This document shows, one piece after another, positions 19,384 to 27,482 of a stretch of DNA of 38,090 nt. Where the stretch lies: the NCBI GenBank assembly GCA_937862825.1, contig CALMEF010000276.1:1-38090 (forward strand), read 5' to 3'. Source of the stretch: an uncultured Armatimonadota bacterium. GTDB taxonomy: Bacteria > Armatimonadota > Fimbriimonadia > Fimbriimonadales > Fimbriimonadaceae. Numbering within the stretch: the first letter of the stretch is position 1; the number at the start of each line of letters is the position of its first letter. Both the position numbers and the translations under genes were made by a program. The notes below the pieces were generated by a model. The model made no database searches. It was given only the letters and a program-made list of their open reading frames with translations, and was not told the origin of the DNA.

Positions 19384-20004
19384 ATGAGTTTAACGGTACT
19401 TGATCACCCACTCGCCGCGCACCTTGTTGCCGGGCTGAGAGACAAAGCCACAGGGCCAGAGCGCTACAGGCACCTTACCAGGGAACTTACGACCATCCTC
19501 GCGCTTGAGGCAACCCGCGGGATCAGAACGAAACAGGTGCAAATCGCAACTCCGCTCGAAGCAACAACGGTTTCTATCTTGGACCAAGGTCTTGCGGTCG
19601 TACCGATTTTACGTGCTGGGCTGGGAATGCTTGATCCGATCACAGAGTTGTTTCCGGATGTCTCAGTGGGATACATTGGGCTTGAGCGAAATCACGACAC
19701 AGCGATCGCTCATAGTTACTACTGTAAGTTGCCAGATCTTCATGGCAAATACACCCTGTGCGTCGACCCGATGCTTGCCACCGGGGGCTCGGCTTCTCAA
19801 GCCATCAACTTGATCAAGGGGCACGGTGCAGCAAACGTTGTCATGATGTGCGTTGTCGCAGCACCCGAGGGCGTTGAAAAGATCCAGCATGATCACCCAG
19901 AAGTAGAAATCGTTACGGCCGCCTACGACAGAGGTCTCAACTCGAAAAAATACATCCTTCCCGGTCTTGGAGACTTTGGCGATCGGCTATTTGGGACGAT
20001 GTAA
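19384..20004 (+). CDS. upp: Uracil phosphoribosyltransferase
   Basis: A 206-residue salvage enzyme that makes UMP from uracil and PRPP. It has the Upp opening VLDHPLAAHLVAGLRD, the LRAGLGM block, the PRPP-binding loop VDPMLATGGSA (about 127-137) and the C-terminal uracil-binding segment YDRGLNSKKYILPGLGDFGDR. Length matches the family (208-210). Its 3' end overlaps that of folD by 18 nt on the opposite strand. Confidence 0.97.
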   Translation: MSLTVLDHPLAAHLVAGLRDKATGPERYRHLTRELTTILALEATRGIRTKQVQIATPLEATTVSILDQGLAVVPILRAGLGMLDPITELFPDVSVGYIGLERNHDTAIAHSYYCKLPDLHGKYTLCVDPMLATGGSASQAINLIKGHGAANVVMMCVVAAPEGVEKIQHDHPEVEIVTAAYDRGLNSKKYILPGLGDFGDRLFGTM

Positions 20005-20847
20005 TCGTTCAGCAGCGTCAACCGCATTTGAAAGCAATGAGGCGACGGTCATCGGTCCCACACCACCTGGTACTGGCGTGATCCAATCGGCTACCGCCGA
20101 TGCCGATTCGTAGTGGACGTCACCTACATCGCCCTTACGCCCCTCAACCTTGTTGTAGCCCGCATCAACAACCACACATCCTGGTTTCAACCAGTCGCCT
20201 TGAACCATTTCTGCTCGGCCAACGGCTGCAACCAAGATGTCCGCAGACCGACACAGGTCCGGTAAGTCTTTAGTCTTTGAATGGGCAATAGTTACGGTTG
20301 CGTTCGCTTCCAAGAGCATCAGTGCTGCCGGCTTGCCCAAAATCACCGAACGCCCAATGACTACGGCATGCTGACCCGATAACGGAATCTGGTGATGGGC
20401 GAGCAACCTCATGATTCCAAGCGGGGTCGCACATCGAAAGCCGGGTAGACCCGAGACAAGGCGGCCGAGTGACTGCGAAGTTATGCCATCTGCATCCTTG
20501 TCAGGACCAAGGGCCACCAAAGCGGCGTCCTCATCCAAGTGCTTTGGCAAAGGATGTTGGAGCAACACACCATGCACCTCGGGATTGCTATTCAGTTCGG
20601 CGATTTTGTCGAGAAGTTCGTTCTGCGAGGTGTTGCTATCAACGGGAAATGACTCACTTACGATTCCGGCTTCGGCGCACCACTTCTGCTTCATGGCGAC
20701 ATAAGCGAGGCTTGCGGGGTCCGTGGTTGCAACAATGGCGTCAAGTCTTGGCTGGACGCCCCTGGATTTGAGTTCCTGAACACGTTGAGCGACCTCATCT
20801 CGAACTATTCGAGAGAGGGCTTTGCCGTCAAGAATCTTTGCACTCAA
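19987..20847 (-). CDS. folD: Bifunctional methylenetetrahydrofolate dehydrogenase/cyclohydrolase
   Basis: A 286-residue FolD. It oxidises 5,10-methylene-THF with NADP and hydrolyses the product to 10-formyl-THF, feeding purine and formyl-Met synthesis. The catalytic pair Y49xxxK53 is in the block YVAMKQKWCAEAGI. VLLQHPLPKHLD, DKDADGITSQSLGRL, VIGRSVILGKPAALML (nucleotide loop) and PVPGGVGPMTVASLL are family signatures. It overlaps the nusB 3' end by 4 nt (ATGA) and is the last gene of the accB-like to folD run. Confidence 0.97.
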   Translation of the reverse strand: MSAKILDGKALSRIVRDEVAQRVQELKSRGVQPRLDAIVATTDPASLAYVAMKQKWCAEAGIVSESFPVDSNTSQNELLDKIAELNSNPEVHGVLLQHPLPKHLDEDAALVALGPDKDADGITSQSLGRLVSGLPGFRCATPLGIMRLLAHHQIPLSGQHAVVIGRSVILGKPAALMLLEANATVTIAHSKTKDLPDLCRSADILVAAVGRAEMVQGDWLKPGCVVVDAGYNKVEGRKGDVGDVHYESASAVADWITPVPGGVGPMTVASLLSNAVDAAERLHRPK

Positions 20848-21407
20848 GATGCTTGGTCCTCGTTACGGATCTTCCAGTTTCCAACACGCGACAACTCCTC
20901 CAGCCGAGGGTCGTCGCCGGTCAAGACCTCGGGCTCCAACAACTCATCGGCTTCCTCCGGTGCTTCTTCACTCAGCGGTTTCTCTGGCGGAACCCAGTTA
21001 GCCTTGTCAGTCTTCGCAAGCAACCGCCCAAGAACACCATTGACGAACTTGCCACTTTCCGCCGTGCTGTAGCGTTTTGCAAGTTCGACAGCCTCGTTAA
21101 TAGTCACTGCCGGGGGCAAATCGGGTTCAAACATCAGTTCGTATGCGGCGATGCGCATGATGTTCCGATCAACGGCCACGATTCGCATGAAATCGTAACC
21201 TGGAGTTAGACCCTCGAGCGCACCATCGATCGTTTGGGAGTTTTGACCAATGCCCTTTACAACCTGTTCGGCATACTCAGCCAGTTCTTCCGGGAGACTG
21301 CCATTCTCAATGACATCGGCCATGGATTCGCGCAGATTCGTCTTGCCAACTTCGGCCCGATACAAGGCCATGAGCGCAGCCTCCCGAGCCTTGCGGCGAG
21401 ATTTCAA
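20844..21407 (-). CDS. nusB: Transcription antitermination protein NusB with acidic tail
   Basis: An all-helical RNA-binding protein that works with NusE/S10 on boxA in rRNA antitermination. The start is taken as TTG at 21405-21407, which overlaps the accC stop codon as TTGA and has GGAGGG just upstream; this gives 187 residues beginning KSRRKAREAALMALYRAE. The core ends near residue 140 with VDRNIMRIAAYEL, PAVTINEAVELAKRYSTAESGKF and VNGVLGRLL. A further 45 residues rich in Glu, Asp and Pro extend beyond the usual NusB end (about 140-150 residues). The role of this tail is unknown. Confidence 0.92.
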   Translation of the reverse strand: MKSRRKAREAALMALYRAEVGKTNLRESMADVIENGSLPEELAEYAEQVVKGIGQNSQTIDGALEGLTPGYDFMRIVAVDRNIMRIAAYELMFEPDLPPAVTINEAVELAKRYSTAESGKFVNGVLGRLLAKTDKANWVPPEKPLSEEAPEEADELLEPEVLTGDDPRLEELSRVGNWKIRNEDQAS

Positions 21408-22756
21408 TTGCCCTCCGCCAAGAACTTGCCCACCCACGAGGTGTGAACGTTGCCGCTCACGTAGTCAGGATGGGAAACCAACCGACGCAAAAATGGGATG
21501 TTTGTGGCTATACCTGCCACATGAAACTCAGCCAAAGCGGACTGCAGTCTGGTCACTGCCTCGGCCCGGTTAGAACCTTTCACAATCAATTTTGCCAGCA
21601 TCGGATCGTAAAAGGGCGAAACCGAGAAACCAGCATAACAGTGGGTGTCCATTCGAACACCTCGTCCCCCTGGAGCCCGCCAATCTGTGATGCAACCTGT
21701 ACTCGGCGCGAAATCGTTATCTGGGTCTTGTGCGGTGATTCGCGCTTCTATCGCGTGACCGCTCAATCGAACCTCTTCCTGTGATAGCGGCAACCGTTCT
21801 CCCGAGGCGATCCTCAGCATCAAGTGCACCAAATCTATCCCGGTGACCTCTTCGGTGACTGGGTGCTCCACCTGGAGTCGAGTATTCATCTCAAGGAAGT
21901 AGTAGTTGAAATCCTTGTCAACGAGGAATTCAACGGTTCCCGCATTGGCATAGCCCACTGCCTGGGCAACCCGGACAGCATCGCGACCCATTTGCTGGCG
22001 AACCTCATCGGGAAAGGCAGCAAACGGTGCTTCTTCAATCAACTTCTGGTGACGGAGGTTTTGAACAGAGCATTCTCGTTCACCAAGGTGAATCATGTTG
22101 CCATGCTCATCGCCGATCACTTGGATCTCTACGTGTCTCGGCTCGACCACGCACTTCTCGACGAGCATGTCGCCATTGCCAAAACTCGCTTGGGCTTCCG
22201 CGCTCGCTGTCTTCCAGTTTTGGGGAAGGTCATCCGGGCTATCGACGCGCCGAATGCCACGCCCTCCCCCACCTGCAACCGCTTTTAAGAGGATCGGATA
22301 GCCAACTTGCTGGGCGAACTCCAGTGCCTCCGTATCGGACTCAACAATGCCATCCGAGCCAGGAACCACCGGGCAATTGCTCTCAATAGCCGCTTTCTTC
22401 GCGCTCGCCTTGTCTCCCATTGCTTCTATGGCGGAAACAGGCGGGCCAATAAACTTGATATTCAGGGACGAGAGTGCTTGAGCAAAGTTGGAGCGTTCGC
22501 TGAAGTAGCCATAGCCTGGATGCACAGCCTCTGCGCCCGAGATTTGGCACGCCATCAGGACGTTGGCCAAGTTCAAGTACGAATCGGTATTGCTACCCGA
22601 TCCAACACAAATCGCCTCATCGGCCATGAGCGTATGAAGGCTCTTCGCGTCAGCCTCCGAATAGATCGCGACGGATCGGACCCCGAGTTCTCGGCAGGCG
22701 CGAATGACTCGACAAGCAATCTCACCACGATTTGCTATCAGAACCTTCTTAAACAT
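21404..22756 (-). CDS. accC: Biotin carboxylase subunit of acetyl-CoA carboxylase
   Basis: A 450-residue ATP-grasp enzyme that carboxylates biotin on BCCP, the first half of malonyl-CoA formation. It starts MFKKVLIANRGEIACRVIRA; the ATG overlaps the pseudopilin stop codon by 4 nt, and the ten residues before it are not part of the family. Key blocks: VAGGGGRGIR (glycine-rich lid), HLGERECSVQNLRHQKLIEE and EMNTRLQVEHPVTEEVTGID. The length equals that of E. coli AccC, so it is a stand-alone subunit and not a pyruvate or acyl-CoA carboxylase fusion. Its expected BCCP partner, two genes upstream, lacks the biotin lysine. Confidence 0.97.
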   Translation of the reverse strand: MFKKVLIANRGEIACRVIRACRELGVRSVAIYSEADAKSLHTLMADEAICVGSGSNTDSYLNLANVLMACQISGAEAVHPGYGYFSERSNFAQALSSLNIKFIGPPVSAIEAMGDKASAKKAAIESNCPVVPGSDGIVESDTEALEFAQQVGYPILLKAVAGGGGRGIRRVDSPDDLPQNWKTASAEAQASFGNGDMLVEKCVVEPRHVEIQVIGDEHGNMIHLGERECSVQNLRHQKLIEEAPFAAFPDEVRQQMGRDAVRVAQAVGYANAGTVEFLVDKDFNYYFLEMNTRLQVEHPVTEEVTGIDLVHLMLRIASGERLPLSQEEVRLSGHAIEARITAQDPDNDFAPSTGCITDWRAPGGRGVRMDTHCYAGFSVSPFYDPMLAKLIVKGSNRAEAVTRLQSALAEFHVAGIATNIPFLRRLVSHPDYVSGNVHTSWVGKFLAEGN

Positions 22757-23130
22757 CAATACTTCTCGTGTCCCGGATGGGGACAAGACACCGTTCCAGT
22801 GGTCGAATCATAGACGTAGGCTTCTTTGCCGATTGGGCAGTTTGAGAAGTCCTTTGGCAGCCCGCGCAGATCGGAGATTGCGTTTGGATAGCCTTCCTCT
22901 CCACCAGTTGATTGAACGTAGATCATTTGGCGAACCTGGTTCACATTGGACCGACAAACCTCATCCTTGGCACGAAGCATGGTCTGACCGATGACCGTCG
23001 CCCCCTTGCCGTCCGGGCGTGCGCTCTTCGAGTCTCCAAAAGCCCTCATTCCGACTGTAGCTCCAACTGCTAGAACAGCAATGATTGCCATCACCGCCAA
23101 TATCTCCACCAATGAAAAGGCCTTTCTCAT
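22756..23130 (-). CDS. Type II secretion/type IV pilus-like prepilin (pseudopilin)
   Basis: A 124-residue protein with a class III signal: a short basic leader MRKA, then the processing site A/F and FSLVEILAVMAIIAVLAVG, with Glu at position +5 as prepilin peptidase requires. The rest is a small soluble domain with three cysteines and C-terminal Pro/His/Gly. It sits, with 4-nt overlaps on both sides, between the accB-like gene and accC. The pilin or secretion machine it belongs to is not in the window. The combination is unexpected, as ACC genes and pseudopilins have no known joint function. Confidence 0.9.
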   Translation of the reverse strand: MRKAFSLVEILAVMAIIAVLAVGATVGMRAFGDSKSARPDGKGATVIGQTMLRAKDEVCRSNVNQVRQMIYVQSTGGEEGYPNAISDLRGLPKDFSNCPIGKEAYVYDSTTGTVSCPHPGHEKY

Positions 23131-23534
23131 GAACTCACCTTCACTCTGCCGATTTCTTGCCCGTATTGGACAGGAGAATCGTCTTCAACGCTGACCTCTA
23201 CCACTTCGCCTGAAACCTTGGACTCAACCTCTGAAGCGAGTCCGAGCGCAATGATTGAGCCGATTACGTCGCCCTTCTTGATATGGGCTCCAACAAAGAG
23301 AGCGTCCGCTCTACGGAAAAACCCGACAGCCGTAGCCTTGATGGGTGCGGTATCGTCGGATTCCGTGACCGAATCGCCGCTCGGCTCAACGGCGTGGTGA
23401 GCGACTGGCGACGAGATTGGCATCAACTTGGCTTCGAACTTGACGTCATCGTACTCCAGTTCGAGTTCCGTGCACCCATTGTCACGAGCCACCTGAAGGG
23501 CGTGCCTTATCCACCCGAACTCAGATTCCGCCAT
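23127..23534 (-). CDS. BCCP-like protein lacking the biotinylation lysine
   Basis: A 135-residue protein with the full plan of the acetyl-CoA carboxylase carrier AccB. The helical N-terminus (about 6-38, WIRHALQVARDNGCTELELE) matches the AccB N-terminal segment, a loose linker follows, and a biotinyl/lipoyl hammerhead domain covers about 64-134 (VGAHIKKGDVIG, SEVESKVSGEVVEVSVEDD, PVQYGQEIGRV). Where AccB has EAMK(L/M), this protein reads I95-A-L-G98: the modified Lys is Gly and the flanking Glu and Met are also lost. It therefore cannot be biotinylated at the usual place. I chose ATG 23534 because the family homology begins there. It heads the run pseudopilin-accC-nusB-folD. Alternatives: a structural or regulatory subunit, as plant BADC proteins are for plastid ACC. 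A true AccB would have to be elsewhere. Confidence 0.85.
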   Translation of the reverse strand: MAESEFGWIRHALQVARDNGCTELELEYDDVKFEAKLMPISSPVAHHAVEPSGDSVTESDDTAPIKATAVGFFRRADALFVGAHIKKGDVIGSIIALGLASEVESKVSGEVVEVSVEDDSPVQYGQEIGRVKVSS

Positions 23535-23556
23535 CCTTAAGAGATTACCAGCAAGA

Positions 23557-23587
23557 ACGGGTTCGAACCACATGGATTCGAACCCGT
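23557..23587 (-). terminator. Hairpin, probable terminator of the PEP-CTERM gene
   Basis: A perfect 11-bp stem (ACGGGTTCGAA with TTCGAACCCGT) closes a 9-nt loop, 20 bases beyond the PEP-CTERM stop codon. On the minus strand it is followed only by TTCTTG, so the U run is weak. It separates the PEP-CTERM gene from the accB-like gene. Confidence 0.55.
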
Positions 23588-23607
23588 CTAACAAGGCTTC
23601 GGTAAAA

Positions 23608-24246
23608 CTAGCCTCTTTTGCGACGCGCGAGGAGCCCGAGTCCAAGCAAGCCCAAAGCAAGCAAGGAAGAGGGCTCTGGCACTGCCTGAAGGTTAAAGTT
23701 GTCAACATGAACCCAACTGGCGCTCACACTAGGATCATTCCTGACGGTCAGATAAGTGGCGTCGGAGTTTGCCACAAATGAGCCAGAAAGGCTGATCCAG
23801 TTATCAACTCCACCCGTCCCAGAGAACACCAGCGTACCAAAATCGTTGGCGCTGTTGGATATCCCAATTTGGATGGGTCCATTGTTTGGGTCAAAGTCAT
23901 CAACATTGGCCGCATCGAAGCTGATCACATACTCAGTTCCGCTTACAATGCCGCTGTTCAAGTCAAACGAAAACGCGTCTACCGCGGCGATGTCTCGTTT
24001 TGAGTGAAGTCCCAACTTCCAAATCCCATCGCTGGCCGTAGGCCCGTACTCGTTTGAGTTCATGAGGTCAATCTCATCGGAATCGCCAAACCCGGTAACC
24101 CCCGAAACCAGAAGCGAAAACGCTGAGTTGGTTAGGTTGTACTCGTTGATTGCCGCCGAGTTGAACTCGAAGCTCCCGTTCAAAATCATATTGGCGCTTG
24201 CGGAGCCGGTCACGGCAAACGCTGCCAAAATCAAAATCCTTTTCAT
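23608..24246 (-). CDS. PEP-CTERM sorted extracellular protein
   Basis: A 212-residue exported protein. A signal peptide (MKRILILAAFAVTGSASA) is followed by a beta-rich domain starting with NMILNGSFEF, typical of carbohydrate-binding-like PEP-CTERM proteins (LVFSGTGGVDNWISLSG, WVHVDNFNL). The tail has the PEP-CTERM tripartite signal: VPEPSS, a hydrophobic Leu/Gly helix, then RRKRG. Such tails are processed by exosortase (EpsH/XrtA), which is not in the window. GAGGAGG stands just before the ATG. Its function on the surface is unknown. Confidence 0.93.
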   Translation of the reverse strand: MKRILILAAFAVTGSASANMILNGSFEFNSAAINEYNLTNSAFSLLVSGVTGFGDSDEIDLMNSNEYGPTASDGIWKLGLHSKRDIAAVDAFSFDLNSGIVSGTEYVISFDAANVDDFDPNNGPIQIGISNSANDFGTLVFSGTGGVDNWISLSGSFVANSDATYLTVRNDPSVSASWVHVDNFNLQAVPEPSSLLALGLLGLGLLARRKRG

Positions 24247-24788: not shown

Positions 24789-27482
24789 TTAGTTGTCTGG
24801 AAGCACCCTCAACACCTTCGTGCGAGGGACCCCATTGTATGTTGCGGTGATCGTCACGTTAACTGGGAACGAGACCTCGTTCGTCGTAATGATGAAGTTC
24901 CGCTTTGACCAATCCGTTGGCACAGTGATTGAAGCAGGAACTTGCGCGACAGATACCGAACTTGATCGAAGGGTAACCAATGCTCCAGGCGCGTTAACCA
25001 GCCCGCTCATGACGACGGTTCCCGTAACGCTATTACCACCTACCACTTCGGTTACGGGCAACGTAACGTCTTGGAGGAACGGTACAACGACCGTTAGCAG
25101 GGCCGTTCGGGTTATGCCGCGAGCCGTTGCTGTGATCGTTGCATTCTGGGTGCTAGTCACTCGGGTAGTCGTGATATTGAATACTCGTTGTTGCTGCGCA
25201 GCAAAGACGGTTACCACGGCTGGAACGCTAGCCAATGTCGGACGCGCACTCGTCACACTTACCGCGAACGGGCTACTAGCCACTCCATTCAATCGGACAG
25301 TTCCCGTTGTCGTCTTACCTCCCGTAATCGGCGAGTTGAGCGTCAACTGCTGAAGACCCAGTGCGTTCAGAGTCAGCTGCTGATAGGAATGCCGACACGA
25401 TATGTCGGCTCCAATCATGACTGGAGTTCGAGTCAAGACGGAGGTTACGGTTACCGTAAACTCGGCAGTGTCCTCGCCTTCAGCGACTGTTACGCTGAAC
25501 GGAACGGTGGCAGCAGGGTTGTTGCTTGAAAGGTGAACACGCTGACCGCCCGCGGGGGCGACATCATCAAGTACGACAAAGCCATCAACTGTTCCTGCAC
25601 CAGCGAAGGTTGTTGGGTTTAGGACCACCTGGATGGGCCTGAGATCGCCGATTACCGGAGCCACACAAATAGTTCGTGACTTGGTGAGACCAGCATAGGT
25701 CCCTCGAATCGTCACCACGTAGTCTTGGTTAACCACGGGCGGACTCATATCGAAAAATACGAAGGACGCTCCTTCTGGAACTGTCACCGTAGCAGGTACC
25801 GGCAAGATGTCTGTGTTGCTACTTGTTAGCGCCACGTCAACTCCGCCAGCAGGAGCCCAACCCGTAAGTCGAACCCTAGCCTGAGTGGTGACACCACCTT
25901 CAATGATTGCAGGAGACGTGATATCTCGAATCTCCGTTTTCAAGAGGGTTAGCTGACGGTTTAACGTATGGCCCTCGTTAGTGGCTCCTATCGTCACACC
26001 AGTGAACTCGCTAACGCCAGAAGTGGGAATCTCGAACTCGACTTCGGTTTCGCCAGCAGGCACAGTGACCGTAGCCGGGGGCTGAGCCGCCGGATGGCTA
26101 CTTGAAAGAGCAACGACGGTTCCACCGGGCAAGGCAGGTCGATCAAGGGTTAGGGTCGCGTCAACTTTCGTGCCACCACCAGCAGGATTCGGAGCAAAAG
26201 TAAGGTTGACGGGATATCGAATCGGGCTAAGTAGCACCGAACGAAGTTGGCCATCTTTCAAACCAACTGCAGTGATTTGACCGGCATCATTGATGGACGT
26301 CGCTTCCAATATTTGCCAACCGCTGTTTGGAGGCAGAAATGAATCAAGCGGAATAGGCGTTCCGAGATAGTCAATCTGAAATGTTTCTGGGTCGCAGATT
26401 CTCGGGAACCAGATGACACCCCGCCAAAAGTAGCGACCAGACACCGAGTCCGACTCGAATCGACCACTTCGGCCCACAACGATACCGCTGTTGTTGATGC
26501 CTCTCGGTTCTGTGAGTGAGTCTCCAGGAAGCCCGTTAAGGTAGTAGCGCGGTTCGCAGAAAATGTCTCCACTAATGTCAAACACCCAACCCGTGGGTTG
26601 GTAGAAATTTTCAAAGCCGAACGGCGGGCGGATGTGAATGCCAGTTGAACCTACCACCATATCCAAGTCATTGATGTCGAAGACCTCAAGGCCAGTGTCA
26701 TCTTGTCGGCGGACATTGTTCAGTTCGTTCGTTTGTCCTTCATACTGCGCACCAGCAGGTGGCGCCCATCTAAAGGCCTTGGGTTCGCCGTTGGCGGCGA
26801 TGTTGATACCAACAACTGTGTTCAGGTTGTTGATAGCCCGAGCAAAAAGCGAATCGCCAGTACCCAGCGGCTTGATGTACAGCGGATTGTAGGGCAATGC
26901 GATTGGGTTATCTGCAGGGTTAAACCACATCGCGATATTGCCCGTGATCTCCAGACCCGTTGACGGCTGCTGGGGTGAGCCGAACCCGTTGTAGACGTAA
27001 GCCCCGCCGTTGTTGATTGCTACTCCGTCAAAAACATCCATGAATCCGGGATGTCGCTGCGGCGGCTCAATCCCAGTTGGGTTTGTAATCGGATCTGGGA
27101 GGACGTAATCTAGGGCTGACATCCCGCCTGCCGGAGACCACATAAACCCGCGGACATCACCGTCGCGACCACTTTGACCAAGCACAACCTCCAAAGCATT
27201 GATGGCCCTGGGGCGAGCAGAGTCATCGTCAATTCGGAGGACGCCAATGTCGCTGTTGGTTCCGTTGCGGTAAATCCACGCATTGAAGGTGCCTTGACCA
27301 GGATAACTTTCTCCGATCACTGATCCGCCAGAACTGACGCGAACAGGTCGAGAAGAAATGGATCCTCCCGGAGCACCGACATCAGTTACGGAGTAGCGAT
27401 CTTGAGCGCCTGCAATGCAAGCGGACAAGGCAAAAATCAGCGAGCCAATGGCCCGACCATCCCAAATAAACCTCTTACCCAT
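24789..27482 (-). CDS. Large secreted protein with five Ig-like repeats
   Basis: An 897-residue exported protein. A signal peptide (SLIFALSACIAGAQ) follows a basic start, and AGGA stands 7 nt before the ATG. The first 430 residues contain HAF-like repeats (FNAWIYRNG...IGVL, AVGLKDGQLRSVLL, INNSGIVVGRSG), which resemble the motif of the extracellular HAF family, and may form a propeller. The rest, about 435-897, consists of five tandem Ig-like units of about 93 residues. Each has the order V.L.P...GG....G.V.L...A..GG..V.LSSS.P....VP.tVTVP.G.....F.I.T..V. This architecture suits a cell-surface stalk or adhesin; no anchor signal is seen at the C-terminus (it ends KVLRVLPDN). Function unknown. 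Confidence 0.85.
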   Translation of the reverse strand: MGKRFIWDGRAIGSLIFALSACIAGAQDRYSVTDVGAPGGSISSRPVRVSSGGSVIGESYPGQGTFNAWIYRNGTNSDIGVLRIDDDSARPRAINALEVVLGQSGRDGDVRGFMWSPAGGMSALDYVLPDPITNPTGIEPPQRHPGFMDVFDGVAINNGGAYVYNGFGSPQQPSTGLEITGNIAMWFNPADNPIALPYNPLYIKPLGTGDSLFARAINNLNTVVGINIAANGEPKAFRWAPPAGAQYEGQTNELNNVRRQDDTGLEVFDINDLDMVVGSTGIHIRPPFGFENFYQPTGWVFDISGDIFCEPRYYLNGLPGDSLTEPRGINNSGIVVGRSGRFESDSVSGRYFWRGVIWFPRICDPETFQIDYLGTPIPLDSFLPPNSGWQILEATSINDAGQITAVGLKDGQLRSVLLSPIRYPVNLTFAPNPAGGGTKVDATLTLDRPALPGGTVVALSSSHPAAQPPATVTVPAGETEVEFEIPTSGVSEFTGVTIGATNEGHTLNRQLTLLKTEIRDITSPAIIEGGVTTQARVRLTGWAPAGGVDVALTSSNTDILPVPATVTVPEGASFVFFDMSPPVVNQDYVVTIRGTYAGLTKSRTICVAPVIGDLRPIQVVLNPTTFAGAGTVDGFVVLDDVAPAGGQRVHLSSNNPAATVPFSVTVAEGEDTAEFTVTVTSVLTRTPVMIGADISCRHSYQQLTLNALGLQQLTLNSPITGGKTTTGTVRLNGVASSPFAVSVTSARPTLASVPAVVTVFAAQQQRVFNITTTRVTSTQNATITATARGITRTALLTVVVPFLQDVTLPVTEVVGGNSVTGTVVMSGLVNAPGALVTLRSSSVSVAQVPASITVPTDWSKRNFIITTNEVSFPVNVTITATYNGVPRTKVLRVLPDN

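Follow-up and report, generated by a model that had tools for sequence, protein, structure and literature searches.

The window analyzed here, 38,090 nucleotides in length, is the entire contig C276 of a 3.4-Mb draft genome from the family of Armatimonadota that contains Fimbriimonas. Its central feature is accB', a gene for an AccB paralogue without the biotinyl lysine, which heads a run of genes ending at folD:

23557..23587, minus strand: strong hairpin without a T-run, after the stop codon of the PEP-CTERM-like gene upstream and before accB'
23127..23534, minus strand: accB', encoding an AccB paralogue of 135 aa that has lost the biotinyl lysine (open frame)
23243-23241, minus strand: codon GGA for Gly98, at the biotinyl-lysine position of accB' (read from the sequence)
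22756..23130, minus strand: pseudopilin-like gene (N_methyl, type IV pilin N terminus, 124 aa), between accB' and accC
21404..22756, minus strand: accC, biotin carboxylase, with its true start ATG at 22756-22754
20844..21437, minus strand: nusB-like gene after accC, given as the longest frame, with a probable start near 21407 (conserved order)
19987..20847, minus strand: folD, the final conserved gene of the operon run

All five genes lie on one strand and each overlaps or touches the next, the accB' stop sharing an ATGA with the pseudopilin start codon and the pseudopilin stop sharing a TGATG with the start of accC; the original prediction that accB' and accC belong to one operon is borne out by these overlaps. 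The region containing the hairpin (23535-23615) has a folding energy of -29.2 kcal/mol (z = -3.6), and comparison of the hairpin with Rfam gave no match. Positioned 5' of accB', the hairpin likely separates the transcripts of accB' and the PEP-CTERM-like gene. A plasmid search gave no match. Two large secreted proteins are encoded elsewhere in the window, one of 897 aa with repeated Ig-like/autotransporter-type domains (24789-27482) and a second of 820 aa (526-2988).

The AccB' protein consists of an N-terminal helix (residues 7-18), a hairpin (23-36), a disordered linker (41-57), and a hammerhead (62-133). Gly98 lies within the ungapped stretch VIGSIIALGLASEV, the counterpart of which in the other AccB of the same genome is VGLIEAMKVFNEI, confirming that the biotinyl lysine is replaced by glycine. 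When AccB' was compared with TIGR00531, the family of AccB/BCCP proteins, the biotinyl lysine of the EAMK/ExMK motif was found to be absent, with ALG in 30 of 30 aligned sequences; the score of 38.9 bits is below the curated cut-off of 115.2, and the protein passes Pfam Biotin_lipoyl. An hhalign comparison of profiles with 23 lysine-bearing Armatimonadota AccB sequences gave a probability of 99.6% and an E value of 1e-23 over 133 columns, the match taking in the N-terminal domain. In the AlphaFold model, residue 98 forms the turn joining strands 90-96 and 99-104, the hammerhead has a pLDDT of about 95, and the PDB structure that matches best, at 1.2 Å, is 1bdo, the biotinyl domain from E. coli; the hammerhead is thus predicted to be intact on both sides of the turn, as had been proposed. 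AccB' therefore shares its fold, N-terminal domain, length, and accC operon with the AccB/BCCP of heteromeric acetyl-CoA carboxylase (ACC; TIGR00531, PF00364; E. coli 1bdo and 4hr7). These proteins have a biotinyl lysine and a full thumb (the SPSPDAKA insertion in E. coli), whereas AccB' is without the lysine and, in alignments with 4hr7 chain B and with the in-genome AccB, has a thumb approximately five residues short.

In the 30-sequence family alignment, L13, A16, G20, F33, and A35 of the N-terminal domain are near-invariant, and G71, G82, and G98 of the hammerhead are invariant, Gly98 being one of five invariant columns. The suggestion that the protein carries another group, such as lipoyl or phosphopantetheine, or biotin on a different residue, could draw on its fold, which is of the biotinyl/lipoyl domain type, and on a weak similarity to GcvH (2ka7), in which Gly98 of AccB' is aligned to the lipoyl lysine that GcvH and lipoyl domains possess. 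However, no conserved K, S, or C was found in the old attachment turn or in the invariant columns, and the replacing residue, usually Gly, is elsewhere R, T, or H, making such a modification highly improbable.

A second accB with EAMK, as the original prediction advised looking for, is present in the same genome. It lies on contig C259 and encodes a thumb-bearing AccB with the motif LIEAMKVFNEI; the genome also encodes another BCCP, which reads LEAMKTQ, as well as a second biotin carboxylase. This separate thumb-bearing AccB has K in 59 of the 59 Armatimonadota genomes read. Where a genome is complete or nearly so, it has exactly two biotin carboxylases, one operonic and one similar to that of methylcrotonyl-CoA carboxylase (MCC), and in each of 10 such genomes carrying accB' there is only one of the ACC type. 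The assignment of the second biotin carboxylase as MCC-like follows from its neighbors, as in relatives it adjoins an enoyl-CoA hydratase and in one genome (G105) also an HMG-CoA lyase, with an EAMK carrier of its own. No ACC-type biotin carboxylase other than the AccC of the window was found in this genome; on the basis of gene content, this AccC must therefore serve the lysine-bearing AccB encoded elsewhere and carboxylate the biotin on it.

Two other assignments of partners were rejected. AccB' is not the only carrier of ACC, as a K-bearing AccB was found wherever both were sought, the rare gaps falling in drafts. The thumb-bearing AccB was also considered as the partner of the second biotin carboxylase; that enzyme is encoded in an MCC-like cluster, with proximity of the two genes in G018 and G127 only. 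Separately, none of AccB, AccB', or operonic AccC is encoded in two reduced, 1.5-Mb genomes of the same family (G028 and G158; loci L203, L204, L359, and L360), which retain an AccA-like protein of about 500 aa and an MCC-like biotin carboxylase together with its BCCP.

Within the Fimbriimonadaceae, every one of the 61 genomes read has Gly in place of the biotinyl lysine, and this agreement excludes a sequencing error at Gly98 or a corrected base call that would restore EAMK. A search of 61 genomes near the window gave a match in 59. Across 100 Armatimonadota genomes, this position of the operonic AccB' is occupied by glycine in 84, arginine in 4, threonine in 2, histidine in 1, and lysine (K) in 9. 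Thus, the glycine holds among close relatives, where restoration of EAMK would have counted against the original prediction, and K at the operon position was confined to nine families or genera distant from that of the window. Where K persists, the operonic position may hold an ordinary AccB.

The absence of the catalytic residue and its several independent losses are what a decaying accB duplicate might display. Yet over 200 pairs the lysine-less AccB' has a median dN/dS of 0.21 and a maximum of 0.53, the value for lysine-bearing AccB being 0.24, and a ratio of approximately 0.2 indicates ordinary purifying selection. Reading frames are intact in 290 of the 291 Armatimonadota genomes matching the family profile, which catches true AccB too, and the Gly is invariant and the operon position lasting. 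Decay is scarcely credible on this evidence, and for the lineages read, the dN/dS values refute a pseudogene, in agreement with the earlier view that the gene is not decaying.

The order accB'-pseudopilin-accC-nusB-folD is spread through most of the Armatimonadota. With or without the pseudopilin gene, accC is directly behind accB' in 91 of 100 Armatimonadota genomes, and the pseudopilin gene intervenes in 82 of these 91, so that the gene set singled out in the original prediction is indeed found across relatives. In families f2 and f11, accB' is not adjacent to accC. Members of f2 (L089, L105, and L106) keep an AccB' with VLGIPNE away from the accC operon, and retention of the protein is thereby independent of operon position. 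The pseudopilin encoded between accB' and accC, a secreted protein of the prepilin type, has a conserved CPxxGHE-like C-terminal end across most of the phylum and is equally present where AccB' has K. In the active-site loop, most Armatimonadota AccC proteins are one residue longer (QxxRHQK, e.g., QNLRHQK) than those elsewhere (QRRHQK); in the window, L090, L094, L099, and others, no tracking of this insertion with the K state of AccB' was found.

In a tree built from the linked AccC proteins, K/non-K changes numbered at least four and the five residue states changed at least nine times, the tree giving the number of changes at the biotinyl position and not their direction. Well-supported sister pairs include L099 (K) with L097 (R) and L091 (K) with L090 (G). 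As K at this position is ancestral to all BCCP, the tree is most simply read as repeated loss, and from these sequences the absence of the lysine in AccB' is most likely derived and has most likely arisen repeatedly. If so, the existence of two AccB genes predates the loss of biotin in one of them. An accC-adjacent AccB in bacterium Yes70-31 (L224) has the thumb and EVMG in place of EAMK, and may thus be intermediate in form between AccB and AccB'.

A DNA pattern, x-[LMI]-G-...-VE[YF]GQ, was used to search 84,980 genomes and identified at least 120 stretches, all of which, among the matches listed, encode AccB homologues without the biotinyl lysine; the pattern selects Gly by design, and these matches therefore carry no information on the share of K in the phyla concerned. 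The matches listed were mostly from Chloroflexota, with others from Neobacillus kokaensis, Brevinematales, UBP9, Vulcanimicrobiota, and unplaced metagenome-assembled genomes (MAGs). The Neobacillus kokaensis match comes from an isolate genome and not a MAG; labels of MAGs may be wrong, as one "Burkholderiales" match groups with UBP9. Among the matches listed, the accB' stop in these other phyla is mostly 3 to 26 bases before accC, and outside the Armatimonadota a lysine-bearing AccB often shares the cluster, as in the gene orders accA-accB'-accC-fabZ-x-fabF-accB(K) at L223 and tetR-accB'-accC-accB(K) in Neobacillus kokaensis (L237). Comparison of Chloroflexota with Armatimonadota AccB' gave a 99.7% match across the N-terminal and hammerhead parts, and the N-terminal helix-hairpin, the columns of which are outside the search pattern, is strongly conserved in the Chloroflexota proteins. 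On this similarity and a tree of AccB paralogues in which deep branches are weak, the AccB' proteins of the two phyla may form one orthologous group. In the open-access papers searched, no lysine-less AccB was found described for bacteria.

ACC catalyzes the first committed step of fatty acid synthesis. The retention of both AccB domains, the loss of the carrier residue, the co-translation with AccC, and the fact that the true AccB is never replaced point to AccB' being a non-catalytic subunit of the AccC-AccB subcomplex. It is probable that AccB' acts as a second, non-catalytic AccB of the heteromeric ACC, assembling with AccC and the true AccB in a manner similar to the plant BADC proteins. 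Under this proposal, AccB' would share its transcript with AccC, with its helix-hairpin and hammerhead kept and unable to take biotin, and would occupy a slot in the AccC-AccB subcomplex that an AccB could fill. The N-terminal helix-hairpin would join those of the true AccB and AccC, the biotin-free hammerhead would stay outside catalysis, and the AccB'/AccB ratio would set the assembly or activity of ACC, as BADC does in plastids. We infer the physical binding, the occupied slot, and the net effect on ACC, for which assembly is preferred over braking.

A model for the helix-hairpin may be found in the fused BC-BCCP protein BC1 of Chloroflexus aurantiacus (8HZ4), in which BCCP hairpins form a beta-barrel bridging two BC dimers, and BC activity falls when this barrel is disrupted (PMC11077971). 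By analogy, the hairpin of AccB' could take part in a comparable junction; the BCCP of BC1 has EAMK, is biotinylated, and is fused, whereas AccB' is a separate paralogue. Chain 8hz4_E was also considered as a solved structure of a lysine-less AccB and was rejected, being a normal EAMK BCCP. The AccE/epsilon subunits are small, non-catalytic proteins that aid assembly of the actinobacterial acyl-CoA carboxylase holoenzyme (PMC7835884); they differ from AccB' in being unrelated small proteins that bind the CT subunit and not BCCP paralogues.

Like the plant proteins BADC1-3 of Arabidopsis, AccB' is BCCP-like without the AMK motif, and both coexist with a biotinylatable BCCP and one BC. BADC, without the AMK motif (AMKL), is not biotinylated, serves a heteromeric ACC, and binds BCCP and BC; it has been argued to be either an assembly "glue" or an inhibitor, whether it helps or hinders ACC is disputed, and it has been called unique to plants (PMC11926652). 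BADC is nuclear encoded and plastid targeted, whereas AccB' is bacterial in all loci read and in an operon with accC. No BADC chain was present among the PDB matches to AccB', and the proposal is that AccB' would work like BADC as far as anatomy goes, with no claim of membership in the BADC family.

AccB' could instead be a competitive brake only, lowering ACC activity by sitting in the BCCP site of AccC or in a slot of the AccB oligomer with no role in assembly, as in the older, inhibitory view of BADC. A lost lysine and a kept fold are the expected look of a dominant-negative subunit, and BADC proteins were first described as inhibitors, according to work cited in PMC11926652. However, a brake held in a fixed ratio with the cell's only ACC-type AccC, in every genome of the family, would be an odd form of regulation, and a structural role is a simpler account of the constant pairing of accB' and accC; we therefore consider a pure brake unlikely.

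James and Cronan reportedly found in 2004 that E. coli AccB represses accBC, with the activity ascribed to its N-terminal part. AccB' might accordingly have kept a single task, autoregulation of the acc operon at the transcriptional or translational level, and both the conservation of its N-terminal domain although catalysis is lost and the position of accB' at the head of the operon in most lineages would fit. Yet the hammerhead, needless for a purely N-terminal regulator, is equally conserved in its invariant glycines, and no DNA-binding domain was found in the AccB' protein; there is little to recommend this explanation over a non-catalytic subunit assembling with AccC and the true AccB.

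More tentatively, it is possible that several phyla have a heteromeric ACC of two AccB-like subunits, one biotinylated and the other structural or regulatory, the second having lost its biotin repeatedly, with BADC one instance. Were this two-BCCP design true, plant BADC would be one case of a wider design and not a plant invention. Bacterial proteins that share the loss seen in BADC and are encoded with AccC would offer a simpler system in which to study the role of such subunits. For annotation, a family score can miscall a protein as a biotin carrier, or miss the kinship, once the attachment lysine is gone. Cultured carriers of the lysine-less protein exist in the Neobacillus isolate and in Fimbriimonas.
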